This document shows positions 35,085 through 49,039 of a DNA stretch of 64,000 bases, in pieces. Position 1 is the first letter of the stretch. Every line of letters begins with the position of its first letter. The notes beneath the pieces are model-generated. The model saw only the letters and a list, made by a program, of their open reading frames with translations, was not told the DNA's origin and ran no database searches. Where the stretch lies: the NCBI RefSeq assembly GCF_000016185.1, contig NC_011420.2, forward strand, positions 2,767,001 to 2,831,000, given 5' to 3'. This DNA is from Rhodospirillum centenum SW. Lineage in GTDB: Bacteria; Pseudomonadota; Alphaproteobacteria; Azospirillales; Azospirillaceae. A program made the translations under genes and the position numbers.

Positions 35085-36101
35085 TCACAGATCGTCGAGC
35101 TGCTCCCGGGTCAGCCAGAACACCTCGCCGAAGCTCTCCGCCGTCTCCAGCCAGGTGAACTCGGTGTCGGGATACTCGGCCTCCAGAATGGTGCGGCCGG
35201 TGCCGATCTCGCAGAGCAGGCCGCCCTCCTCCGTCAGATGCCTGTGCGCCTCGGCCAGGATGCGACGGACGATGTCCAGCCCGTCCTCGCCCGATCCCAG
35301 CGCCATCTGCGGCTCGTGCCGGTACTCCGGCGGCAGCTCCGCCATCGCCTCGGCCGAGACATAGGGAGGGTTGGTCAGGATCACGTCGTACCGCCGGCCC
35401 TTCAGCGGCTTGAACAGGTCGCCCTGGATCAGGCTGACCCGCTCCTCCAGCCCCGCCTCGGCCACGTTGATCCGGGCCACCTCCAGCGCCTCGGGCGAGA
35501 GGTCCACGGCGTCCACCGTGGCGTCGGGGAAGATGCCGGCGGCCAGGATGGCGAGGCAGCCCGAGCCGGTGCAGAGATCGAGCACCCGCCCCACCTCGGT
35601 GGGGTCCTCCACCAGCGTGAATCCGTCGCCGCCGAACAGGTCGGAGAACAGCAGCTCCCCGATGTAGGAGCGCGGCACGATGACCCGTTCGTCCACATGG
35701 AAGGGCACGCCCTGGATGTAGGCCCGGCCGGTCAGGTAGGGCGCCGGCTTGCGGGTGGTCACCCGCGCCTCCACGATGTCGGCCACCAGCCTGCGCTCGG
35801 CCGGGGTCAGCTTCGCGTCCAGATAGGGTTCGAGCTGGTCGATGGGAAGCTGGAGCGTCTCCAGCACCAGGAAGGCCGCCTCGTCATAGGCGGTGGTGGT
35901 GCCGTGCCCGTAGACCAGTCCCGCCGACCGGAAACGGCTGACGGCATGGCGCAGGAAGTCGCGCACCGTGACCAGTTCCGCCGCGGCGGTGGCCGCATCC
36001 ACGGCCGGCAGCGGAAAGCGCCGGGCGGGTGGAACGGGCGGCGGGGCGGCAGCCGGGGTGCCTGACGAGGGGGCGGTCTTGGTACTGGACCTGGGGGGCA
36101 T
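35085..36101 (-). CDS. prmB: Ribosomal protein L3 glutamine methyltransferase PrmB
   Basis: 338 residues. It methylates a glutamine of ribosomal protein L3 using SAM. An N-terminal helical domain (VTVRDFLRHAVSRF) precedes the Rossmann core with SAM motif VLDLCTGSGCLAILAAGIFP, the acidic motif VDAVDLSPEALEVARINV, and the catalytic NPPY in YDVILTNPPYVSAEAM. The end AESFGEVFWLTREQL is typical of PrmB rather than PrmC. The first about 25 residues are Pro/Ala-rich and may not all be translated. Confidence 0.93.
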   Translation of the reverse strand: MPPRSSTKTAPSSGTPAAAPPPVPPARRFPLPAVDAATAAAELVTVRDFLRHAVSRFRSAGLVYGHGTTTAYDEAAFLVLETLQLPIDQLEPYLDAKLTPAERRLVADIVEARVTTRKPAPYLTGRAYIQGVPFHVDERVIVPRSYIGELLFSDLFGGDGFTLVEDPTEVGRVLDLCTGSGCLAILAAGIFPDATVDAVDLSPEALEVARINVAEAGLEERVSLIQGDLFKPLKGRRYDVILTNPPYVSAEAMAELPPEYRHEPQMALGSGEDGLDIVRRILAEAHRHLTEEGGLLCEIGTGRTILEAEYPDTEFTWLETAESFGEVFWLTREQLDDL

Positions 36102-36190: not shown

Positions 36191-37354
36191 TCAGGAGATG
36201 GAGCGGACCTTGACGACGGACTTGCGGAGGTCCTGCACGGCGGCGGCCGGCCTCCCCCCTGACGGCAGCACCAGCGAGGCCGCGGCACTGCTGATGCCGC
36301 CACCGGCATCGGTTCCCGGAGCCGGCGTCACGTCCCAGCCGAACGGGGTCGTGATCGTGCCGCCGTACCCACCGGCGCCGGGTTCCACCGCCCAGCCGGA
36401 CGGGACATGGAAGGCAGGCGGCTCGATCCGCCAGCCACCGGCGGTCCTGAAGACACGGTACCAGTCGGGTACCGTGATCGTGCCCTTCGACACGGAGGCG
36501 TCGTATGCCACCTTGAAGGGGACCGGAACGGTGAGCGTCGTCCCCGTCCCGGAGGGCAGCCTTCCAGGGAGGAAGGTGACGGCCGGGGCTGGCTTCGCCG
36601 CGAAAGTAGCGGCGGAAGTCGATGCAGCGACGGTGGTCGGCATCATGACCACGCTCTGCATGCCGGTGCTTGAGGACCTGATGATCTCGTTGCTGCCGGT
36701 CACCTCGATCCCGTGCCAGCCCAGGGCGGCGAAGGAGTCCACGGCGTCCGCCACGGCAGAGTTGGGGCCGGGGTTGACGACATCGAAGATCGGCTCCGTG
36801 AATGCCGGCCCCGAGGCCCCCCGCGCCGCCATGCAGAAGGCCATCGACAGGGTGATGAAGCCCTTGTCCGCCTTGTCGAACGGAAGCCCCGTTCCCCCGG
36901 TGAAGTGTGGCGCCGCCATCCCGTTGGCGTTCAGCCAGGCGACGAGCTTCCGCGCCGTGGTGCTGTCCACCGTCTTGCGGTCGCGGCTCCCCATCAGAAG
37001 GTTGCCCTTACCGTCGCCATGGCAGTTGATGCGGATCTTGCCCACCTGGCTCAGGTCCCCCGCCCACTTCATGTAGGTCCGGTAGACGGGCGTCGTCGTT
37101 CCCCTGTCGATATCCGCGACGGGGACGGCGACGGTCAGGTAGTTGTATCTGTCCACGTCCTTGGGCGGTGGCTTCGGCACCACGGACGTGACATCGCTGC
37201 CGAACAGGCTGGTCCTGATCGAAATGAGGCGCACCGCCCTCAGCGCGTGCTTCGTGCTCTGGTACTGGAGCTGCGGCTTGATGTCGGCGTGGAAATCGGT
37301 CCAGCCGCCAGGGCCGGTCAGGAAGACCTCCAGGAATCGGGTATAAACAGGCAT
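36191..37354 (-). CDS. Unknown protein with clan-CD-peptidase-like His/Cys pattern (paralogue 1)
   Basis: 387 residues, family not recognised. The N-terminus is MPVYTRFLEVFLTGPGGWTD. A hydrophobic strand leads to HGDG (KIRINCHGDGKGNLLMGS; His112). Sixty-two residues on, another strand leads to Cys174 (ITLSMAFCMAARG). Then comes NPGPNSAVADAVDSFAALGW, HGIEVTGSNEI. This order (strand-HG, helix, strand-Cys, helix, strand) is that of clan CD cysteine peptidases such as the C80 autoprocessing domain; the assignment is inference. The C-terminal region has three GW-containing motifs (AGGWRI, PSGWAV, PFGWDV). The ribosome-binding site CGCGGAGGAC is shared with the next paralogue. No signal peptide. 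Confidence 0.8.
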   Translation of the reverse strand: MPVYTRFLEVFLTGPGGWTDFHADIKPQLQYQSTKHALRAVRLISIRTSLFGSDVTSVVPKPPPKDVDRYNYLTVAVPVADIDRGTTTPVYRTYMKWAGDLSQVGKIRINCHGDGKGNLLMGSRDRKTVDSTTARKLVAWLNANGMAAPHFTGGTGLPFDKADKGFITLSMAFCMAARGASGPAFTEPIFDVVNPGPNSAVADAVDSFAALGWHGIEVTGSNEIIRSSSTGMQSVVMMPTTVAASTSAATFAAKPAPAVTFLPGRLPSGTGTTLTVPVPFKVAYDASVSKGTITVPDWYRVFRTAGGWRIEPPAFHVPSGWAVEPGAGGYGGTITTPFGWDVTPAPGTDAGGGISSAAASLVLPSGGRPAAAVQDLRKSVVKVRSIS

Positions 37355-37423
37355 GTGTCCTCCGCGACGCCGCGGCCGGGCGGGAGCCGCCCGGGGGCCG
37401 GATACCGGGGAGATGCAGGGCGG

Positions 37424-38557
37424 TCAGGAGATCGCCCGCACCTTGACATCGGAATGGGTGAGCGGCTGCCATTCGCCTGCGTTGACATCGGGGTTGAAGA
37501 GGATGCCACCGCCCTGGGCGTTGAGGCTGGGCGTCACCTGCCAGCCGGCCGGCGTCGCCATGCTGCCCCCGGCCCCGCCGGGGTCGCGCGTCACCAGCCA
37601 GCCGGCCGGAATGTGATAGGCCGGCGCCTGGATGTCCCAGCCGCCGGACGGGTTGTTCGTCACGTTGGCCGGATCGGGAGTCACCGTGCAGGTGGGCGGG
37701 ATACGGATCCTGCCGGTGCCCGACCAGTAGGAGTATTCGACCAGGAAGCCATGCGGGACGGTGATCTGGGTGCCCGTTCCGTCCGGTCCCGCGTCCGTCT
37801 GGAAATCCATGCCCGCCGGGAAGCCGAGGGAGGTCATGGAGGGCGCGCGCACCGCCTGGTTCTGCCGGCCGCCGGTCGAGGCCGTGATCTCGTTGCTGCC
37901 GGTCACCTCCACCCCCCGCCAGCCCTGCGCCCGCAGGGCGGTGACGGCATCCGCCACCGCCGAGTTCGGGCCGGGGCTGAGGGCCCCGGAGAGAAGGCTC
38001 TGCGACGCCCCCTCGCCGGGGCCGCGCGCCGCCATGCAGAAGGCGAAGGCCAGCGTGACCAGCCCGTTCGAGGCCTTGTTGCCGAAGACCGTATCGACCA
38101 GGCCGATCGTCGGCTGCGGCAGACCGTTCGCCGCCAGCCAGGCGACGAGCTGGGCCGCGTTCGCCGCGTCCGAGGCGGCATGGGCCTGGTCATACATCAG
38201 GAAGTGGCCCTGGCCGTCGCCATGGCTGTTGATCCGGATCTTGCCGATCTGGCCCGTGTCCCCCACCCACTGCACATACTGCTGATAGGCCGGGTTCACG
38301 ACGGCGCCGGCGATGTGCGCTACCGGAACCACGACGCCGACATAGCCCGAGACGTTCAGGGCCGGCGTCGGAAGCTGCGGCGTCAGCACGGCACCGCCGG
38401 GCGTCCCGGCGGCCGGCACTCCGGCGATCAGCACCTGCTGGGCCAGGCCATGGGCGGCGGTCTGATGGTTGGCCTGCTCCAGCACCTCGCCGGCGAAGTC
38501 GTACCAGCCGGACGAATGGGTCAGGAAGACGTCGAGGTAGCGGGTGTAGTCGGGCAT
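37424..38557 (-). CDS. Unknown protein with clan-CD-peptidase-like His/Cys pattern (paralogue 2)
   Basis: 377 residues, a tandem paralogue of the gene 69 bp downstream. It starts MPDYTRYLDVFLTHSSGWYD after GCGGAGGACCC. His112 (KIRINSHGDGQGHFLM) and Cys174 (LVTLAFAFCMAARG) fall at the same residue numbers as in paralogue 1, while much of the rest differs, which points to functional constraint. SPGPNSAVADAVTALRAQGW, RGVEVTGSNEI is also shared. The C-terminus repeats GGWDI, PAGWLV and PAGWQV and ends VKVRAIS. No secretion signal is visible. It lies behind mtnA on the same strand but 127 bp away. Confidence 0.8.
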   Translation of the reverse strand: MPDYTRYLDVFLTHSSGWYDFAGEVLEQANHQTAAHGLAQQVLIAGVPAAGTPGGAVLTPQLPTPALNVSGYVGVVVPVAHIAGAVVNPAYQQYVQWVGDTGQIGKIRINSHGDGQGHFLMYDQAHAASDAANAAQLVAWLAANGLPQPTIGLVDTVFGNKASNGLVTLAFAFCMAARGPGEGASQSLLSGALSPGPNSAVADAVTALRAQGWRGVEVTGSNEITASTGGRQNQAVRAPSMTSLGFPAGMDFQTDAGPDGTGTQITVPHGFLVEYSYWSGTGRIRIPPTCTVTPDPANVTNNPSGGWDIQAPAYHIPAGWLVTRDPGGAGGSMATPAGWQVTPSLNAQGGGILFNPDVNAGEWQPLTHSDVKVRAIS

Positions 38558-38684
38558 GGGTCCTCCGCGGCAGGGGGGCGGCCGGATGCCCCCGCCGGAA
38601 GGACGCGCGGACCCGCGCCGCTGTGAACGCCCCTCTCCCGCTGCCCTTGCCCGCCGCCCCTGCCCGCGGACGCGCCCGTCCCGC

Positions 38685-39812
38685 TCAGGCGTCGTTGGCG
38701 ACGCGCTGGCGGGCGGACCGCTCGGCCTGGTCGGGGAACAGGCCGGCCAGCCCCTCCTGGCTGGCGGCGCAGAGGCCGCGCTCGGTGATGAAGCCGGTCA
38801 CCAGCCGGGCCGGGGTGACGTCGAAGCCGTAATTGGCGACGGGAGAGCCGTCGGCGACGATGCGCACCCGCTCGATGCGGCCGTCGGCGGTGCGGCCGGT
38901 GATCTCCGTCACCTCCTCGTCGCCGCGGGTCTCGATCGGGATGCCGTGGACCCCGTCCTCCAGCAGCCAGTCGATGGTGCTGCCGGGCAGGGCCACCCAG
39001 AAGGGCACGCCGGTGTCGTGCGCCGCCAGCGCCTTCAGATAGGTGCCGATCTTGTTCGCCACGTCGCCGCGGGCGGTGACGCGGTCGGTGCCGACGACCG
39101 CCAGATCCACCAGGCCGTGCTGCATCAGGTGGCCGCCGGTGTTGTCCGCCACCACCGTGTGCGGCACGCCGTGGTGCCCCAGTTCCCAGGCGGTGAGGAA
39201 GGCGCCCTGGCTGCGCGGGCGCGTCTCGTCCACCCAGACATGCACCGGAATGCCGGCATCGTGCGCCATGTAGATCGGCGCCGTGGCCGTGCCCCAGTCC
39301 ACCGTGGCCAGCCAGCCGGCGTTGCAGTGGGTCAGCAGGTTGACCGGGCGGTGCGGGTTGCGCTTGTGCAGGCCGCGGATCAGCTCCATCCCGTGGCGGC
39401 CGATGGCGCGGCAGACCTCCACATCCTCCTCGGCGATGGCGGCGGCTTCGGCATAGGCGCGGCGCACCCGGTCGGCCGGGGGCGTGACGGACAGCACCTC
39501 GCGCAGGCGGGCAAGCCCCCAGCGCAGGTTCACCGCCGTGGGCCGGGTCGCCAGGAGACGGTCGTGCGCCGCCTCCACCGCCCGGTCGGTCGCATCCGCG
39601 CGCATGGCCAGCGCCATGCCGTAGGCGGCCGTGACCCCGATCAGGGGGGCGCCGCGCACCGCCATGGTGGTGATCGCCTCGGCCGCCTCCTCCAGCGAGG
39701 TCAGGCGGCGGGTGCGGAATTCGAAGGGGAGTGCCGTCTGGTCGATGATCCCGACGGACCAGCCGTCCGCGTCAACCCAGATGGTGCGGCGATGGATGCC
39801 ATCGACCTTCAT
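38685..39812 (-). CDS. mtnA: S-methyl-5-thioribose-1-phosphate isomerase
   Basis: 375 residues. It isomerises MTR-1-P to MTRu-1-P in methylthioadenosine salvage. Motifs are [19 protein letters not shown], the catalytic-Cys region [30 protein letters not shown] and the Asp-bearing [20 protein letters not shown]. The length is that of the family. No other mtn genes are adjacent; in Rhodospirillum relatives MtnA also feeds an MTA shunt. The ATG at 39810-39812 is well supported. Confidence 0.95.
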
Positions 39813-40711: not shown

Positions 40712-42865
40712 TCACGCGCACGTCATGGCGAGGGGCTCCACCGGCCTGTCCTCGGGCACGGCCTCCAGGATGCGGCCGTCCTGGAGCAGCAGCAGCCGGT
40801 CGGCGGCGGCGATGGTTTCGGGCCGGTGGGCGATGACGATGCGGGTGATGCCGAGCTGGCGGAGATGGGCGTTCACCTCCCGCTCCTTCGACACGTCCAG
40901 GTGGCTGGTGCCTTCGTCCATGAACAGGATGCGCGGGCGGCGGTAGAGGGCACGCGCGAGCAACACCCGCTGGCGCTGCCCGCCGGACAGCGCCGCCCCC
41001 ATGTCGCCCACCAGGGTATTGTAGTTCATCGGCATCGCCATGATCTCCGCATCGATCCCGGCGATCGCCGCGCACTGGCGCATCCAGGCGAGATCGGGGG
41101 CGGGATCGAAGAAGGTGATGGTCTCCGCCAGCGTGCCGGACAGCAGGCTGTCGTCCTGCATCACCACCCCGACCTGCGCGCGGAAGCTGGCGGGGCCGAC
41201 ATGGTCCAGCGGCACCCCGTCCACCAGCACCTCCCCCGCCGTGGGCCGGAACAGGCCCAGCATCACCTTGAGCAGCGTCGTCTTGCCCCCGCCGGAAGGC
41301 CCCGTGATGGCGACGAACTCCCCCGGCGCCACCTCCAGGTCCACCCCGGCGATCACGTCGGGTTCCGTCTCGGCATAGCGGTAGGCGACGCCCTTGCAGG
41401 CGATGCAGCCCTGGAGCGGCCGGGTGATCAACGGTTCCGCGGCATCGCGCTCCAGGCCCCGCTCGCGCTCGGCCAGCGCGATGTCGCTGATGCGGTCCAG
41501 ATGCAGGTCCAGCATGCGGTACTGGATGGCGGTCTCCAGCAGCTTGGTCGCCTTGTCCAGGAACTGCTGCTTGTAGGCCATGAAGGCGAACAGCATGCCG
41601 ACCGTCAGGTCGCCGTCCATCGCCAGACGCGCGCCGGCATAGACGACCAGGACGTTCTCCACCCCGTAGATCAGGCCGTTCGCAAGGGTGAAGCCGATGT
41701 TCAGACGGCCGAGCCGGACGCCACGGGTGACCGTCTCGGCGAAGCGGTCATGCCAGACGCCTTCGCGCTCCGTCTCATGACCGAAGATCTTGATGGTCTG
41801 CATCGCCCGCGCGGTTTCGATGAAGCTGGTCTGCTCCTTGGCGCTTGCGGCGATCACCTCCTCCTCGCGCTGGCGCAGGAACCGGAACGCGGCGATGCGG
41901 ACAGCGGCATAGAGCACCAGCGCCACCAGCACGATGCCGGCCAGCAGGGGCGAATAGAGAAAGATCACGACCAGGGTCAGGACGGCCATCACCCCGTCCA
42001 CCAGGGCCGCCACCAGCCCGTCGGTGATCAGGTCCCGGATCGGCCGGGTCGAACCGAAGCGGCTGACCAGATCGCCGATGTGGCGTTTCTCGAACCAGTC
42101 CAGCGGCAGCCGGAGCATGTGGTGGAAAAGATTGACCACCATCTGGTGGTTGACGACGGATCCCAGGATCAGCAGCACCGTGGAGCGCAGCCACTGCGCC
42201 CCGAGATTGATCAGGGTGAAGAGACCGAAGCCGACGGCCAGGGCGATCATCAGGCCCCCGTCGCCCTTCATCACCGCTTCGTCCACGGCAAGCTGCATGT
42301 AGAAGGGGCTGGCCAGCACGAAGAGCTGTAGCACGACCGACAGGATCAGCGCCTGGGCCAGGGCGCGCTTCATGCCGTCCACCCGGCCGACCAGGGAGAA
42401 GAGGCCCAGCGTCGAGCGCGCCGCCTTCTTCTCGAAGCCGGTCGTGGGGGTGAGTTCCAGGGCCACGCCGGTGAAGTGCTGCGACAGCTCCGCCATGCGC
42501 ATCCGCACGACGCCCTTGGCCGGGTCGTGGATGGTCACCCGGTCGCCCGTCACCGCCGCCAGCACGACGAAATGGTTCATGTCCCAGTGCAGGATGGCCG
42601 GCAGCTTGAGATCCCTGAGGTGCGCCGGCTCCAGCCGCAGCCCCCGGGGCGCCAGCCCCAGCCTCTGCCCCATCAGGGCGATGGTCTTCATCGTCGCGCC
42701 CTTGAGCGAGACGGAGAAGCGCCGGCGCAGGGCGGACAGGTCGGTGGCGTGACCATGATGGCCCAGCACCATGGCCAGGCAGGCCAGCCCGCATTCCATG
42801 GCTTCGGCCTGGAGAACCAGCGGGGTGGCCTGTCTGTACCCGAAAGCCGTGACCGCAAGACTCAC
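40712..42865 (-). CDS. Peptidase-C39-containing ABC exporter (bacteriocin/microcin type)
   Basis: 717 residues from the GTG at 42863-42865 (AGCGGAGAACGGAC before it). The N-terminal C39 peptidase has Gln19, catalytic Cys25 (AEAMECGLACLAMVL), His98 (LHWDMNHFVVLAAV) and Asp114 (VTIHDPAKGVV), all intact. Six membrane helices follow (about residues 165-430). The ATPase has Walker A GPSGGGKTTLLK, signature LSGGQRQRVLLARAL and Walker B RILFMDEGTSHLD. Such exporters, like CvaB, cut double-glycine leaders and pump the core peptide out with a fusion protein and TolC. Four candidate leader peptides and the fusion protein lie in the same cluster. Confidence 0.95.
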   Translation of the reverse strand: MSLAVTAFGYRQATPLVLQAEAMECGLACLAMVLGHHGHATDLSALRRRFSVSLKGATMKTIALMGQRLGLAPRGLRLEPAHLRDLKLPAILHWDMNHFVVLAAVTGDRVTIHDPAKGVVRMRMAELSQHFTGVALELTPTTGFEKKAARSTLGLFSLVGRVDGMKRALAQALILSVVLQLFVLASPFYMQLAVDEAVMKGDGGLMIALAVGFGLFTLINLGAQWLRSTVLLILGSVVNHQMVVNLFHHMLRLPLDWFEKRHIGDLVSRFGSTRPIRDLITDGLVAALVDGVMAVLTLVVIFLYSPLLAGIVLVALVLYAAVRIAAFRFLRQREEEVIAASAKEQTSFIETARAMQTIKIFGHETEREGVWHDRFAETVTRGVRLGRLNIGFTLANGLIYGVENVLVVYAGARLAMDGDLTVGMLFAFMAYKQQFLDKATKLLETAIQYRMLDLHLDRISDIALAERERGLERDAAEPLITRPLQGCIACKGVAYRYAETEPDVIAGVDLEVAPGEFVAITGPSGGGKTTLLKVMLGLFRPTAGEVLVDGVPLDHVGPASFRAQVGVVMQDDSLLSGTLAETITFFDPAPDLAWMRQCAAIAGIDAEIMAMPMNYNTLVGDMGAALSGGQRQRVLLARALYRRPRILFMDEGTSHLDVSKEREVNAHLRQLGITRIVIAHRPETIAAADRLLLLQDGRILEAVPEDRPVEPLAMTCA

Positions 42866-43007
42866 GTCCGTTCTCCGCTCAATACCGTATCGGCCGGCAC
42901 TCAGGCACAAGCAGAGCAGACGGCCGCCGGGGCGGCCGTCTGCCGAAGTGGATCGTCAATGTCCCTGTGGATGGACGGATGACGAGGTCCTGTTCACATC
43001 AGGACAT

Positions 43008-43160
43008 TCACTTCATGATCTTCAGGACCGCGAGCGCCGTACCGGCGCCGGCGAAGAACCCCTTGACGAAATAGGCAGCGACAAGGGGAACCGCGCCACC
43101 GGCGACCTGATCCAGGTCATCCAGTTCGACGATCTGCACAGAGGTATTCTGCGGAGCCAT
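43008..43160 (-). CDS. Double-glycine leader peptide A (bacteriocin precursor)
   Basis: 50 residues. The leader MAPQNTSVQIVELDDLDQVA ends GG at residue 22; ELDDLDQVAGG fits the class II leader consensus cut by C39 peptidases. The predicted core is 28 residues, starting AVPLVAAYFVKGFFAGAG and ending LKIMK: hydrophobic, cationic, with one GxxxG (GFFAG). It starts after CGGGAGATGTGTC. Its stop is about 143 bp before the exporter start, on the same strand. Core activity is inferred. Confidence 0.85.
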   Translation of the reverse strand: MAPQNTSVQIVELDDLDQVAGGAVPLVAAYFVKGFFAGAGTALAVLKIMK

Positions 43161-43175
43161 GACACATCTCCCGTT

Positions 43176-43280
43176 TCAGTTCATGATCAGAAGGGTCAGC
43201 AGCGCCACCAGAGCGCCGGAGACCACACCGTAGACGAAGAACTTTGCAGGAAGTTCTTCGTCGTTCCGTTCCGTGATCAT
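43176..43280 (-). CDS. 34-residue single-helix peptide B
   Basis: It starts MITERNDEELPAKFFVYGVV and ends LLTLLIMN. It has no double-glycine leader, one membrane-length helix and one GxxxG (GVVSG). The start lies 4 bp after the stop of peptide C, so translation is probably coupled; peptide A begins 15 bp after its stop. It could be an immunity or accessory peptide, or a leaderless third component. Its charged N-terminus and helix length resemble small immunity or holin-like peptides. Confidence 0.65.
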   Translation of the reverse strand: MITERNDEELPAKFFVYGVVSGALVALLTLLIMN

Positions 43281-43284
43281 GGCT

Positions 43285-43473
43285 TCACTTGATGAGATAG
43301 TAGACGCCGACCACCAGAGCCGCCCCCAGGACGGCGCCGGACCCGAAGGCTGCGATCAGCACGAGGGGCTTGGGGCCGCCGCTCACATGATCGAGGTCGT
43401 CGAACGAGAGTTCGGTCATGACGGCCCCCTCGCCGAAAGCGGCCGCATCAGAGCAGATCAACGCAGAAGACAT
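43285..43473 (-). CDS. Double-glycine leader peptide C (bacteriocin precursor)
   Basis: 62 residues from an ATG with a strong ribosome-binding site (CTGGAGGTTTC). A shorter start at 43419 (MTELSFDDLD) is possible. The leader ends TELSFDDLDHVSGG at residue 33. The predicted core is 29 residues, starting PKPLVLIAAFGSGAVLGAAL and ending GVYYLIK, with GxxxG (GAVLG). It resembles peptide A's core in length, hydrophobicity and basic end, as expected for a two-peptide bacteriocin. First gene of the C-B-A run that leads to the exporter. Confidence 0.85.
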   Translation of the reverse strand: MSSALICSDAAAFGEGAVMTELSFDDLDHVSGGPKPLVLIAAFGSGAVLGAALVVGVYYLIK

Positions 43474-43823
43474 GAAACCTCCAGGTTCTGGTTGCCGCAT
43501 ACCACGCTCCAGGCGCCCGACATCCCGGGTGTGCGTCCGGATCGTGAGCCCATCGTCGGCTTGTTAATGGGCAAATGAATATGACTCCGGACAAATCCTC
43601 CCGATCCCACCGCAGACGAATAAATCAGGTATAGCTGCAAGCGGATCACCATTTCATGAGCACAAGCAATTCACACAGACACACAAGTGCATACAGCACA
43701 AGACTTTACTGCGATAGGCGACCATAGTGACCCGAAATCCAAATCTCTATACTCGGCATCAGGTATTTATTTCGACTGGCACCCTGTTATCCCGTATGGG
43801 GCAGGCTCTGGTCGTTGTACGCC
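43474..43823. other. Intergenic region upstream of peptides C-B-A
   Basis: 350 bp, clearly more A/T-rich than the genome. It should hold the promoter for the C-B-A-exporter run. No gene supported. Short open frames on both strands lack ribosome-binding sites and leader motifs. The 92-bp element seen elsewhere in the cluster is not present here. Confidence 0.4.
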
Positions 43824-44537
43824 CTATCCCTCGTCGCACCACAAGCCGGTCGTCCTCAGAAAGCGCTCAATTGTCTTCAGATAATATATCGGCAGCAAGC
43901 AGCTTATCAGTATGATCGCCTGTGCTGTGCTTGTATTCTCAAGATTTCCGCTGAGCCAGAGCGTTATGAATATTCCTGACGCGGAGTGAATGACGAGAAG
44001 CAGGGGGAGCAGGGTTCCCCCCAACAGAGTCAGACCCGGAACACTCTCCCGTCCACGCCCGTCATAGACACAGCTCCCGCCGCCGAGAATGGGAAAGAGC
44101 CTGTGTGTCGGGGATTGCGTGCGAGCGACAGCGAGCGAGTGCAGGTAGATCATCGGGGTAAAAACCCCCGAAAAAAAGCAGATGCCGATCACATATTCCT
44201 TCATGGGGTCATAGAGTAAGCTCAACAGAAACAGGGCAATGCATGAAAAATGGAATACGTATGTAATTTTTAATTTGAAGTTCCCCCCAAGGGCGTTGGC
44301 AAGCCATAAAAAAACAGCAAAAGCGTGATTTTGACGCCCGTATTCCCGATTAACTTCTGACATGTATTTTTTAAAACTCAAGAATGGAACCAGACTTCCC
44401 CCGATCAGCATCCCTCCGATGATGGACGTCGATGGATTGGCCGAGTTCAATGTGGCAAGCAGAATTGCCAGGCCGAGCAGGGCCGGTGACAAGGCGATCA
44501 ATACCGCGATTTCCTGCGAGATAAATACTCTATTCAT
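43824..44537 (-). CDS. Polytopic membrane protein of the bacteriocin cluster
   Basis: 237 residues, about six helices (for example AVLIALSPALLGLAILLATL, FSCIALFLLSLLY and LLPLLLVIHSASGIFITLWL), unrecognised. It is A/T-rich, like the precursor genes and unlike the genome. The start ATG is at 44535-44537. A small Cys-rich ORF ends 15 bp upstream. It could be an immunity or accessory transport protein. Nothing in its sequence identifies it as an enzyme. It is 350 bp from the C-B-A run. Confidence 0.7.
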   Translation of the reverse strand: MNRVFISQEIAVLIALSPALLGLAILLATLNSANPSTSIIGGMLIGGSLVPFLSFKKYMSEVNREYGRQNHAFAVFLWLANALGGNFKLKITYVFHFSCIALFLLSLLYDPMKEYVIGICFFSGVFTPMIYLHSLAVARTQSPTHRLFPILGGGSCVYDGRGRESVPGLTLLGGTLLPLLLVIHSASGIFITLWLSGNLENTSTAQAIILISCLLPIYYLKTIERFLRTTGLWCDEG

Positions 44538-44552
44538 ATTTAGCTCACTATC

Positions 44553-44738
44553 TTAGAGCCATCGGAGAGTCTGAACGCGTCCCTCCCGATGGGCTTTAAT
44601 GATGGTGGGCTCGGAACCGGCCCCGACAAACACTCCTGCACACGATGGCTCATCGACCTCGCAGCCTATATTGCCCCCACAGATCCGGCACCTTTCCCTG
44701 AGCGACATAAACCTTGAGGCTTTTATCGCAGCGAACAT
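44553..44738 (-). CDS. Small four-cysteine peptide
   Basis: 61 residues (or 51 from an internal ATG at 44708, MSLRERCRICGG). Four Cys in a C-x2-C-x5-C-x6-C pattern suggest disulfides or a metal site. It ends HREGRVQTLRWL. There is no leader of the ELDDLD-GG type, although GG occurs inside. It overlaps the end of the first 92-bp element and lies 15 bp before the membrane-protein gene. It may be a cluster peptide or an accidental frame. Confidence 0.35.
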   Translation of the reverse strand: MFAAIKASRFMSLRERCRICGGNIGCEVDEPSCAGVFVGAGSEPTIIKAHREGRVQTLRWL

Positions 44739-44825
44739 CAACCTTACGGAATTTCGGATCGATCGCAATACCCAATATGGGTGGCATCAACGCAGGTTCT
44801 GGACGATTTTAATTGCATCCAGCCG
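44734..44825 (-). repeat. 92-bp cluster element, copy 1
   Basis: Ungapped match to 49116-49207 (76 of 92 bases identical by my count). Conserved blocks are AACATCAACCTTACG, GATCGCAATACC, GGGTGG and CGATTTTAAT. Copy 1 includes an inverted repeat ACCCA-TAT-TGGGT (minus: ACCCATATTGGGT). It lies upstream of the 4-Cys peptide and membrane-protein genes. Probable shared promoter/operator. Confidence 0.7.
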
Positions 44826-44862
44826 GGGGAGGGCGGGCAAGGACCCGGTCATACCGCCGCGC

Positions 44863-45929
44863 CTAAGCATTGACACATGGGAGCCACGGATAGCTTGTGA
44901 GGGAGCGTAGACGTTCTGGTGTGGCGGTGAGGGCGTTCCAGGCGTCGCAGCAGGCTTGGACGACGGCGTCGTAGTCGTCCAGGATCTGGTGGGACAGAAA
45001 GCGCTCGCGCAGGTACAGCCAGACGCGCTCAACTGGGTTGAGTTCGGGGCTGTAGGGCGGGAGCGGGACCAGCGTGATGTTGTCCGGGACGACCAGCGCC
45101 CGCGCTCCGTGCCAGCCGGCCTGATCGAGCACGAGCACCGCCTGGACGTCCGGTTCCAGGCTCCGGGAGAAGCCGTCCAGGAACAGGCTCATGGCGGTGG
45201 TGGAGACGGTCGGCATCACCAGCGCGAAGTCGGCGCCGCTGGCCGGGCAGACGGCGGCGTAGAGCCAGGCCGAGGTGAAGCGCTTGTCGCACAGCCCAAG
45301 CGGACGCTGCCCGCGCTCCCACCAGCGATGCGCGGTGCGGCCCTTCTGGCCGATGCGGGCCTCATCCTGGAACCAGAGCTGGAGGCGGCGCTCCGGATGC
45401 GCGGCACCTGCGGCCTTCAGGGCTTCGCGCAGCCCCTTTTTTGGAAGGCGGCCTGGGCCTTGGCGTCGGACTGCGGATGGCGGGGCCGCGTCTTCTGCTT
45501 CGACAGGTTGAGCCGGCGCACGATGCGCGACAGGCTGGCCGGATGCAGCGTCTTGGCGAAGCGTTCGGCGATCACCTCGCACAGGATCGGCAGGGTCCAT
45601 TCCACGCAGCCATGCCGCTTGGGATCGGGGCCAGCGAGGATGATGGCCTTGAGCGTCGCCTGCTCGCCTTCGCTCAGCCACTCCGGCCGGCCGGGCAGCG
45701 GGCGGTCGTAGAGCCCGGCTACGCCTTCCGCGTTGTAGCGCACAACCGCGTCGCGCAGGGCCTGGCGGTCCATGCCGGCCAGCCGCGCCGCTTCCGCCCG
45801 GCTCACCCCATCGAGCGCATGGGCGATGGCGAACATCCGCGCCGCCACCCGCCCTTTGCTCTCCCGCCGCGCCAGGGCACGCAATTCGCTGGCGCTCAGG
45901 TCTTCCCGGATCGGCAACGCCGCTGGCAT
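44863..45929 (-). CDS. IS630-family transposase, two overlapping frames (programmed frameshift)
   Basis: The first frame (45417-45929) starts MPAALPIREDLSASELRALA and carries the HTH region (RAEAARLAGMDRQALRDAVV). The second frame, running to 44863, carries the DDE domain: LWFQDEARIG, AVLVLDQAGWH and SPELNPVERVWLYLRERFL, so all three acidic residues are intact. The frames join at a run of six A (minus strand, 45437-45442), the usual slippery site in this family. The element could be active. A sequencing error at the homopolymer is the alternative. Confidence 0.85.
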
Positions 45930-45937
45930 TCGCTCCT
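44863..45937 (-). mobile_element. IS630-family insertion sequence
   Basis: Defined by its two-frame transposase; the terminal inverted repeats could not be fixed by eye, so the ends are approximate. The right end is bounded by a 16-bp palindrome (CCCCATCGCGATGGGG, 45938-45953). Its G/C content matches the host rather than the A/T-rich cluster, so it inserted from a genome-typical source. It separates the two halves of the bacteriocin cluster. Confidence 0.8.
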
Positions 45938-45989
45938 CCCCATCGCGATGGGGAATCGAATCACGGATTGCCGGCCTTGGGAATCCCTC

Positions 45990-46437
45990 TCAGTGAGTCA
46001 GCGGCTCCGCTCGCCGGAACCGCTCAAGCCGAAGGACGGGCGGCCTCGGCTGGACAACCAGACGGCTTTGACCGGCATCCTGTTCGTGTTGCGCTCCGGC
46101 ATTCCCTTGGACCTGCCGTCGGTGGAGATGGGGTGCGGTTCGGGCATGACCTGTCGGCGCCGGCTGCACGAATGGGCATCAAGGGGCTACGACTTCGCCC
46201 ACTGCCGGCAAGCGCTGTGCCGGCGGGGGATCGTGCGGCGCATCGCCAGCGCGGTATCGAGAACAGCGAGCGCCTGGGACGGCACCGATGGGTGGTCGAG
46301 CGTACGCTTGCCTGGCTCGCCCGCTTTCGCCGCATCGCCGTCCGCTCCGAGCGACGCGCCGACATCTTCACCGCCTTCCACCATATCGCCGCCGGCCTTA
46401 TCTGCTGGCGTTTCGTCCAGAAATGGTTCTGGTAGGC
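45990..46437 (+). pseudogene. IS5-family transposase remnant
   Basis: The N-terminal part (GRPRLDNQTALTGILFVLRS, then MGCGSGMTCRRRLHEW) and C-terminal part (GIENSERLGRHRWVVERTLA, then FRRIAVRSERRADIFTAFHH) of an IS5/IS427-type transposase lie in different frames. The catalytic centre is missing, so it is an internal deletion plus frameshift. It is directly next to the IS630 element and cannot transpose itself. Confidence 0.8.
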
Positions 46438-46461
46438 GCTCTTAGTCGATCGCCTGCGATA

Positions 46462-46647
46462 TCACGGGTGTCTATTCCTAAACAGCCAGAACAAGCACAG
46501 TATAAAAACAAATATGCTCCCCATTCCGGCAATCAGGGAAAGCGTGTCTTCGTGCTCAAAAAAACGACGCAGATGAACGTATCCAAAAAAAGGTTGTGCA
46601 ATAGTCATTGAAATGATGAGCAAATCCATTCCTGTTTTATTTCGCAT
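46462..46647 (-). CDS. Small two-helix membrane protein (candidate immunity for peptide D)
   Basis: 61 residues starting MRNKTGMDLLIISMTIAQPF after CCGGAGACAAAAT, a good ribosome-binding site. Two membrane segments flank a charged loop (HLRRFFEHEDTLS) and the end is FWLFRNRHP. It lies 65 bp after the stop of peptide D on the same strand. Bacteriocin immunity genes are typically small membrane proteins just behind their precursor. The assignment is by position. Confidence 0.65.
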   Translation of the reverse strand: MRNKTGMDLLIISMTIAQPFFGYVHLRRFFEHEDTLSLIAGMGSIFVFILCLFWLFRNRHP

Positions 46648-46712
46648 ATTTTGTCTCCGGTTGTAATTTATTGAAAATTCTTGGCATGTTTTTGCATGCC
46701 CAGAACTTCTCA

Positions 46713-46913
46713 CTATCGGGTATAACACGACACAAATGTGCCGTAGGCAGTAAAACCAAAAGATATCCATCCGACGGGACCACTCACTCCTGCGACAAGG
46801 GCCAAGCTCATCATGCCAAAACCGCCCATACAAGCCCCAGCATCCCACATATCTCCACCCGCGCCATGGTCGAGATCATTCAGATCAATCATAAAGGGCT
46901 TACTCTTATTCAC
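46713..46913 (-). CDS. Double-glycine leader peptide D (bacteriocin precursor)
   Basis: 66 residues from a GTG; an ATG seven codons in (MIDLNDLDHGAGG) is the alternative. There is no strong ribosome-binding site for either. The leader ends DLNDLDHGAGG at residue 20. The predicted 46-residue core starts DMWDAGACMGGFGMMSLALV, is Gly-rich and amphipathic, and ends FVSCYTR. Its two Cys (core positions 8 and 43) could form one long-range disulfide, as in some class II microcins. A small membrane protein gene follows. Confidence 0.75.
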   Translation of the reverse strand: MNKSKPFMIDLNDLDHGAGGDMWDAGACMGGFGMMSLALVAGVSGPVGWISFGFTAYGTFVSCYTR

Positions 46914-46991
46914 TTCGCAGTCAAGAACCGTCCCCGCATGATCAAGGATCAGTAAGTTTACTGTTGGGCGCTTGACATCAATGGTAACACA

Positions 46992-47327
46992 TCACGATGA
47001 AACAACCATATTCTTAAAAACAAACACAATCAAGCCAGAAACTATAAATATGCCGGCATCTTCGATCGTATATTCATTTTTCTCAATTAACTTGTTTTTG
47101 GGACCAAGCCTATTAATGTTCTCGCGCCAGCCGTCGGGAAACACAATCAAAGAAAATGGCAGGAGAGAGAATATTATGATAAATGCGGAAAAATAGACGC
47201 CAGGACCCAAAGGTTCTGAAGCGAAAAATCTGCCGCTGATGTACACCATAAAGCATACAGGAAACGACACCGCCAGCGAATGGGTTGTTATCTTCCAAAC
47301 TTTCTCATAAAAATGTTCTTTATTCAT
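46992..47327 (-). CDS. Small three-helix membrane protein (candidate immunity for peptide E)
   Basis: 111 residues starting MNKEHFYEKVWKITTHSLAV, with helices at about 15-32, 43-63 and 90-107 (IFIVSGLIVFVFKNM). It is A/T-rich and unrecognised. It begins 60 bp after peptide E's stop and ends 78 bp before peptide D, so it sits between two precursors as immunity genes do. The function is inferred from position only. Confidence 0.65.
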   Translation of the reverse strand: MNKEHFYEKVWKITTHSLAVSFPVCFMVYISGRFFASEPLGPGVYFSAFIIIFSLLPFSLIVFPDGWRENINRLGPKNKLIEKNEYTIEDAGIFIVSGLIVFVFKNMVVSS

Positions 47328-47387
47328 TTTTCCGCACTCAAAAAAGCAGGCACCATTGCACCATGAGGCACAATGGCACCTCAGTTA

Positions 47388-47642
47388 TCATGAATCCATC
47401 AAGAACATTGCGACCTCATAAAGACCCCACCCGACGCCGACGGCAGCACCGACAGCACCACCGAAGGCAGCACCCACGACCGCGCGTCCGGCTGCACGGC
47501 CCGCAGCCTTGGCGAACTCTCGCTTGAACAGAGACCAGTTATCAGATCCGCCATGGACACCGCACATGTCATCCAGTGTTAGCTCGATTATTTCCATGTT
47601 CGGCATGAAAGATGAACCATGGCAAGAAACCATTGTAGTCAT
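47388..47642 (-). CDS. Double-glycine leader peptide E (bacteriocin precursor)
   Basis: 84 residues from the ATG at 47640-47642, 8 bp behind GGGGAG; an ATG two codons earlier is too close to it. The leader ends MEIIELTLDDMCGVHGG at residue 32. The predicted 52-residue core starts SDNWSLFKREFAKAAGRAAG (basic helix), then a Gly/Ala-rich stretch (AVVGAAFGGAVGAAVGVGWG) with several GxxxG, ending FLMDS. This pattern resembles colicin-V-like class II microcins. Confidence 0.82.
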   Translation of the reverse strand: MTTMVSCHGSSFMPNMEIIELTLDDMCGVHGGSDNWSLFKREFAKAAGRAAGRAVVGAAFGGAVGAAVGVGWGLYEVAMFLMDS

Positions 47643-47706
47643 GTTCATTCTCCCCAGCTAAATAAATACGATAAGCGGATTGGGTCTACACCCCGATCCA
47701 CTATGT

Positions 47707-47731
47707 CCCCACCAGCCCTGCGCTGGTGGGG
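47707..47731. terminator. Stem-loop between fusion-protein gene and peptide E
   Basis: Perfect 10-bp stem CCCCACCAGC / GCTGGTGGGG with a 5-base loop, no T-tract. It lies 70 bp after the fusion-protein stop and before peptide E. It may lower read-through or protect the mRNA end so that precursor and transporter levels differ. Confidence 0.55.
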
Positions 47732-47800
47732 GCTCCTTCTCCAGAGGCGGGCAAAAGGAACACACGAATCCATCCGCCTGCAAAGCCCCCGGCCCGGTCC

Positions 47801-49039
47801 TCACATCCGCCCCCGCGCACTCATCAGGGGCTCCAGCAGCCATTCCAGCAGGCTCCGCTCCTCCAGGACGATATCGGCCGTCACCGTCATGTCCGCTTGC
47901 AGGGGGACCTGCCTGCCGAAGGCATCCACCGTCGCCCGGTCCAGGGTCACGGCCACGCGGTAGACGGGCTCCTGGGCCCGCACCGGGCCGATGATCTCGT
48001 CCGGGGCCAGCACGGTTTCCGAGACGTCCGCCACCACCCCGCCATAGGCACCGAAGCGCTGGAACGGGAAGGCGTCGTACATCAGCCGCACCCGCTGGCC
48101 CGTATCCACGAAGCCGATGGCGCGGGAGGGAACGAACAGCTCCGCCTGCAACGCCGCCGCCTCGGGCACCAGGGTCAGCACGGGTTTCTGCGGGTCCACC
48201 CGCTGACCGGGCGCCGCCTGGAGTGCCGTCACCCGGCCCGCCGCCGGTGCGCGGATCACCTGCGCGCCCTGGGCCGCCACCTCCGCCTCGCGCTGGCGCA
48301 GATCGGCCAGCGAGGAGCGCAGACGGGCCAGACGGTCGGCCGTTTCGGCGGGAAGCTGGGCGCGCTGGACCCGGGTCTGCGCGATCTCCGCCTTCGTGGC
48401 CGTGATCTGCTGGTCGAGGACGGCGAGGTTCTGGCGCTGGCTGAGCCACGCCTCCTCCCGCGCCCGGTACTCGGCCTCCGAGACGTAGCCCTTGGCCCTC
48501 AGGTCGGACAGCGCCTTCAGGCGCTCTCCCGTCACCGCCGCGCGCTCGACCTGCAACCGGCGCTGTTCGGAAAGCGCCACCAGTTCCGCCTCCAGACCGG
48601 TGATCCGCGCGGCGACACGCTCGACCTCCGAGGCGCTGCGCGCTTCCTCCGCGGCGATCTGCTCGGCGAGGAACTCGGCCTGCTGTGCCAGCGACCGGCG
48701 CAGCGCGGCGTCCAGCGTGCTCCCGTCCTCAAGGGCATGCCGCGTGTCCAGGACGAACAGGGCGTCACCGGCGGCGACCCGGTCGCCGTTGGCGACCATG
48801 ACCGATGCGAGCGTCCCGGCGCGCACGGGCACCACCCGCAGCGCCCCGGAGGCCGGAGCGAGAAAGCCCGTGACCGTCTCCTTACGCGCATAACCGGCCG
48901 TCGCGGCGAAGGCGAGGGCAAGGCCGACCGACCCCGCCAGGAACGCCGTCAGAACCGGCCAGGCGACAGGCGTCAACCCCAGCGGCAGGCTGGTGCGCTG
49001 ACCCGCGAGGGCGGGAATCTGACGGAACTCTATCGCCAC
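47801..49039 (-). CDS. HlyD/CvaA-type membrane-fusion protein
   Basis: 412 residues from a GTG behind GATGAGGGCATC. A short cytoplasmic tail leads to one helix (PVLTAFLAGSVGLALAFAAT), then the periplasmic part: lipoyl half (VVPVRAGTLASVMVANGDRV), a long coiled coil (residues about 110-255), second lipoyl half (APAAGRVTALQAAPGQRVDP) and a beta-barrel (FVPSRAIGFVDTGQRVRLMY). It matches the adaptor that links a C39-type exporter to TolC in microcin V export. Start of the cluster's left-reading run. Confidence 0.93.
   Translation of the reverse strand: MAIEFRQIPALAGQRTSLPLGLTPVAWPVLTAFLAGSVGLALAFAATAGYARKETVTGFLAPASGALRVVPVRAGTLASVMVANGDRVAAGDALFVLDTRHALEDGSTLDAALRRSLAQQAEFLAEQIAAEEARSASEVERVAARITGLEAELVALSEQRRLQVERAAVTGERLKALSDLRAKGYVSEAEYRAREEAWLSQRQNLAVLDQQITATKAEIAQTRVQRAQLPAETADRLARLRSSLADLRQREAEVAAQGAQVIRAPAAGRVTALQAAPGQRVDPQKPVLTLVPEAAALQAELFVPSRAIGFVDTGQRVRLMYDAFPFQRFGAYGGVVADVSETVLAPDEIIGPVRAQEPVYRVAVTLDRATVDAFGRQVPLQADMTVTADIVLEERSLLEWLLEPLMSARGRM

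Follow-up and report, generated by a model that had tools for sequence, protein, structure and literature searches.

A tandem pair of anciently duplicated, species-restricted genes in Rhodospirillum centenum with invariant His and Cys blocks and a possible clan-CD-like plan

The two genes described here lie within a window of 64,000 nucleotides from the genome of Rhodospirillum centenum SW (NC_011420.2, positions 2,767,001 to 2,831,000), and all coordinates refer to this window unless otherwise indicated. They are adjacent on the minus strand and are separated by 69 bases. The gene that is transcribed first, P0002 (37424..38557, (-)), encodes a protein of 377 aa, and the second, P0001 (36191..37354, (-)), a protein of 387 aa. 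Both were recognized from their open frames, translations and coding composition (GC3 of the pair, 0.88 and 0.91) and, for P0002, also from its 41% identity to P0001. The two frames are intact and each is preceded by a ribosome-binding site, GGAGGA, located 3 bases 5' of the ATG (38561..38566, (-), for P0002 and 37358..37363, (-), for P0001). An earlier note, based upon the sequence alone, had described this locus as a tandem pair of diverged paralogues, and this description is confirmed. The possibility that these are chance or non-coding open frames is ruled out by the alignment of the paralogues, the coding composition, the ribosome-binding sites, and the codon comparison and identity runs versus shuffled sequences that are described below.

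The pair is flanked by mtnA (38685-39812, IF-2B family) and by a gene for a prmB-like methyltransferase (35085-36101). This arrangement of neighbours is not conserved, as neither prmB nor gcrA was found within 1.5 kb of mtnA in any of 13 relatives from the same order. Upstream of the pair are a gene for a C39-peptidase ABC transporter, at a distance of 2.2 kb, and one for HlyD, at 9 kb; both are part of a bacteriocin-type export locus (40712-49039, (-)), in which the transporter occupies positions 40712-42910 and HlyD positions 47801-49039. This locus also contains three short peptides with GG-type leaders recognized by eye (43285-43500, 46713-46913, and 47388-47648), the last of which shows a weak match to Bacteriocin_IIc (E 0.00056, below the curated cut-off). 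Inside it lies a transposase encoded in two overlapping frames (44863-45929, (-)), consisting of a winged-helix ORF (45417-45929) and a DDE_3 ORF (44863-45681), which is an IS630-type arrangement; a second, truncated, transposase-like ORF (45968-46435, (+)) was read by eye.

The proteins P0001 and P0002 can be aligned without any gap across ~230 N-terminal residues, and the identical residues cluster in the blocks GKIRIN-x-HGDG, LVAWL, AFCMAARG, PGPNSAVADAV, and EVTGSNEI. The main identical runs are PGPNSAVADAV (11 residues), AFCMAARG (8), EVTGSNEI (8), and GKIRIN (6). In total, 33 residues fall in identity runs of at least 6, a number that was reached by none of 20,000 shuffles, and the longest run of 11 has a p-value of 0.005 by shuffling. 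The residues H112, G113, D114, G115 and F173, C174, M175, A176, A177, R178, G179 are invariant in both proteins. The earlier claim that a His and a Cys are retained at the same positions in the two paralogues is thus borne out by the alignment. From translation and alignment, the His112 codon is located at 38222..38224 (-) in P0002, within the sequence KIRINSHGDG, and at 37019..37021 (-) in P0001, within KIRINCHGDG; the Cys174 codon, within AFCMAARG in both proteins, is located at 38036..38038 (-) and 36833..36835 (-), respectively. Cys174 is the sole cysteine that is common to the pair (P0001 has Cys 111 and 174, and P0002 has Cys 174 and 290), and His is shared at positions 36, 112, and 315 of P0002 (316 of P0001). 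The observation of these conserved His and Cys blocks is sound and it is well above chance. The residues at these two sites are putative catalytic residues, as discussed below.

The age of the duplication was assessed from codon usage. At the 142 identical residues other than Met and Trp, the codons of the two genes differ in 55 cases, and 56.0 differences are expected for two independent draws from the codon usage of the neighbouring genes. As the differences are at the chance level, the synonymous sites are saturated, and hence the duplication is old and the 41% identity has been held by selection on the protein. A simple count (dN 0.60, dS 0.79) had suggested fast divergence of the two genes, but this interpretation was rejected in view of the saturation indicated by the codon-bias-aware test; such simple counts are misleading in this GC-rich genome.

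Searches with P0002 or the pair alignment as query detected no relatives of the pair among about 1,190 genomes, which were obtained in partly overlapping draws from the same order (82), class (385), and phylum (398) and from the Gammaproteobacteria (321). Scans of GTDB contigs, viral contigs, phages and plasmids were likewise negative, although the contig scans used short exact peptide patterns that may miss distant relatives. The weak matches that were observed were all rejected: L009 is antisense to a heme-exporter-like region, L011-L016 are unrelated or spurious frames, L120 is unrelated, and L119, a RuvA-like sequence from the same genome (C1:1861892-1862026) in which AVADAVSAL...GY resembles the PGPNSAVADAV block (E 0.013), was judged to be due to chance. 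The papers on R. centenum that were searched do not mention the pair. The best reading of these results is that the pair is anciently duplicated and species-restricted, with no detectable relatives.

Based upon the alignment and the predicted models, each protein can be divided into two parts. Residues 1-232 (37862..38557, (-), in P0002 and 36659..37354, (-), in P0001) form a putative alpha/beta domain of clan-CD-like type, as suggested by the alignment and the strand and helix order of a low-confidence full-length model for P0002 and by a low-confidence core model for P0001. The remainder (residues 233-377 of P0002, 37427..37861, (-); residues 233-387 of P0001, 36194..36658, (-)) is a tail with GW repeats, for which several short strands were predicted in the low-confidence full-length model of P0002. 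The GW motifs at W307, W320, and W339 (P0002 numbering) are conserved in the pair, as is the terminus VKVR(S/A)IS, which reads VKVRAIS in P0002 and VKVRSIS in P0001. The earlier note had pointed to three C-terminal GW motifs; these are indeed conserved, but the tail extends beyond them and consists of about four rough units of the form 'tI..P.gW.V....gG', as read by eye. The C-terminal tails matched no known family.

In papain-like and glutamine-amidotransferase-like enzymes the Cys comes first, and a His that precedes the Cys sets clan CD apart from them. The clan CD peptidases have a parallel core sheet of order 2-1-3-4, in which the His and the Cys are located at the C-ends of strands 3 and 4, respectively, and the Gly directly after the His is structurally conserved in all families (PMC4357240). 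In both P0001 and P0002, His112 precedes Cys174 and is followed directly by Gly113. The core model for P0001 is of low confidence (mean pLDDT 41.6, pTM 0.41), as is the full-length model of P0002 (mean pLDDT 33.9), and this confidence is too low for placing residues or reading the order of the sheet. The core model predicts the elements E7-13, H18-35, E40-45, E71-78, H89-97, E106-111, H129-143, E166-175, H196-210, and E216-224, so that the strand 106-111 would run into His112 and Cys174 would lie at the end of the strand 166-175. Cys174 is followed by a helix in the two low-confidence models alike, and in the core model this helix leads on to another strand. The clan-CD-like plan that had been proposed for the pair therefore stands in part: the order of His and Cys, the Gly after the His and the predicted order of strands and helices fit with it, but it received no statistical support, as no significant match indicating a relation to clan CD was obtained in Pfam, NCBIfam, the PDB sequence search or hhalign comparisons with C14, CHAT, and DUF4347. 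The solved chains of C80, caspases, and gingipains did not match the pair, and the searches of Pfam, NCBIfam, PADLOC, and PDB gave nothing significant for it; the best match in PHROGs (E 0.0024) is to a family of unknown function and covers only residues 199-243 of P0002.

For comparison with other families, profiles were built from the DUF4347, C14, and CHAT domains of Alphaproteobacteria. The DUF4347 profile used for hhalign, hmmsearch, and the background test held one misread row (L020), which was left out of the three-block test described below. By hhalign all three families gave chance-level scores only; in the best of these non-significant alignments, that with DUF4347, H112 and C174 were placed opposite the HG and the C of this family. 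By hmmsearch, the P0001 core scored 3.4 bits against the DUF4347 profile (3 of 500 shuffles scored as high), with HGDGKGNLLMG opposite shGapGaleLgg, in register and in order, and CMAARGASGPAF opposite CevaageaGaaf, so that C174-MAARGASGPAF is also in register and HG is followed by C in the DUF4347 order. With P0002 the score was 1.3 bits (55 of 500 shuffles as high), and the HG block was aligned but the C block was not. Among 1,260 background fragments, a set that includes true caspase-like domains, 31 scored at least as high as P0001. When the three blocks were scored jointly against DUF4347, 5 of 400 column shuffles reached the score, which was negative in absolute terms, and the best ordered blocks of P0002 fell elsewhere. 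Because the scores are weak and six profile/protein combinations were tried, the DUF4347 signal is a lead and not an indication of membership; among the families compared, DUF4347 appears to be the best motif comparator, weakly so and not significantly after correction. The likeness consists of a strand-HG-(D/x)xG hairpin, a strand-C-xxAxG element, a helix and a further strand, together with the weak in-register profile alignment. The H-to-C spacing, however, is 62 residues in the pair versus about 40 in the aligned DUF4347 copies, and DUF4347 is a domain of large bacterial surface proteins, whereas the pair are stand-alone proteins of ~380 aa with a GW tail. The function of DUF4347 itself is uncharacterised (PMC8262886). 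The same genome contains five DUF4347 domains, each within a very long open frame, of 1,683 to 5,399 aa (positions in the genome contig C1: L017 at 3209214, L028 at 3993377, L034 at 4350658, L038 at 4092386, and L042 at 3993896), while the C14 and CHAT profiles matched nothing in it. The caspase/metacaspase C14 and CHAT families share with the pair the order of His and Cys and an alpha/beta core, but their profile scores for the pair are at or near chance.

Our preferred explanation, which is held tentatively, is that the two genes encode divergent, species-restricted cysteine peptidases of clan-CD-like type with a beta-rich GW-repeat tail. A nearly equally likely alternative is that the N-terminal part is a non-peptidase alpha/beta domain, flavodoxin- or Rossmann-like, whose HGDG and FCMAARG loops serve in ligand binding or have a structural role, without any Cys-His catalysis. 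The best Foldseek matches for the core model were FMN azoreductases and flavodoxins, which resemble it in having a parallel sheet and alternating helices, its top 50 matches included no caspase-type structure, and no peptidase profile matches the pair. None of these matches, however, had E < 0.001, the model from which they derive is poor, and the pair shows no Pfam match to a flavodoxin or FMN azoreductase family; the matches agree with a generic alpha/beta sheet and do not single out a caspase core. Further, as the flavodoxin sheet order 2-1-3-4-5 contains the clan CD core order 2-1-3-4, the topology alone cannot separate the two folds. What argues against a flavodoxin-like domain is that the conservation focuses on the single Cys that the pair shares and on an HG with the His first, which is unusual in flavodoxins.

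A narrower form of the preferred explanation, in which the pair would be divergent relatives of DUF4347 specifically, with the HG...C module, otherwise part of giant surface proteins, serving as a stand-alone enzyme, could draw upon the in-register HG and C blocks, the presence of five DUF4347 copies in the same genome and the small fraction of column shuffles reaching the joint score. We consider it improbable, as the signal lies below any threshold, the Pfam model of DUF4347, PF14252 (cut-off 24.6 bits), does not match the pair even at E 10, and both the negative joint score and the displaced P0002 blocks count against it. Still less probable is that the pair are secreted antibacterial effectors, either type VI cargo or substrates for the C39-peptidase ABC transporter and HlyD that are encoded close by. 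The closeness of these export genes would fit this suggestion, as would PA0256, a DUF4347 protein proposed to act as an antibacterial type VI effector (PMC8262886), but a type VI sheath gene (PF05943) was not found in the genome, and mtnA and gcrA lie between the pair and the transporter. In addition, a double-glycine leader is not apparent by eye in either protein, whereas the three leader-bearing short peptides beside the transporter are its likely cargo, which makes secretion of the pair by this route unlikely. Lastly, the resemblance to the C80 autoprocessing domain that had been suggested earlier is unsupported, and true membership of this InsP6-induced family is highly improbable. The HG-strand-Cys-helix-strand order does agree with C80, in which a His with a Gly beside it ends strand 3 and a Cys ends strand 4 (PMC4357240), a plan seen for the pair in low-confidence models. 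However, neither the full proteins nor their cores matched C80 in Pfam at E 10, no solved C80 chain matched, and those C80 domains that have been characterised form part of very large toxins (PMC4357240), in contrast to these stand-alone proteins.

According to the preferred reading of the pair as clan-CD-like peptidases, residues 1 to ~232 most likely form a divergent alpha/beta domain of the caspase/haemoglobinase type, and the remaining ~150 residues a beta-rich tail with GW repeats. His112, with the conserved Gly directly after it, would end core strand 3 and activate the thiol of Cys174, which would be placed where core strand 4 ends and would attack the peptide bond. The invariant PGPNSAVADAV and EVTGSNEI blocks may make up the helix and the strand that come next and flank the substrate cleft, and the tail may position a substrate or a partner. 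As neither a signal peptide at the N-terminus nor a double-glycine leader is apparent by eye, a cytosolic enzyme is the default. This caspase-like reading is plausible and unproven; the analysis shows that the genes exist and are paralogous, that their synonymous sites are saturated and that the His and Cys blocks are invariant, whereas the fold, the catalysis and the function are inferred. That the pair represents a new family of small peptidases with a His-Cys dyad, in which a core of the caspase/haemoglobinase type is joined to a beta tail with GW repeats, so far confined to one species and retained there as an old tandem duplicate, is less likely than not.

If the fold is not confirmed, the pair would be an ordinary orphan family that has been kept by selection. 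If it is confirmed, these proteins would represent a divergent branch of clan CD that lies beyond all current profiles, and they would provide a candidate caspase-like enzyme for R. centenum, a cyst-forming model bacterium in which C14 and CHAT are not detectable.
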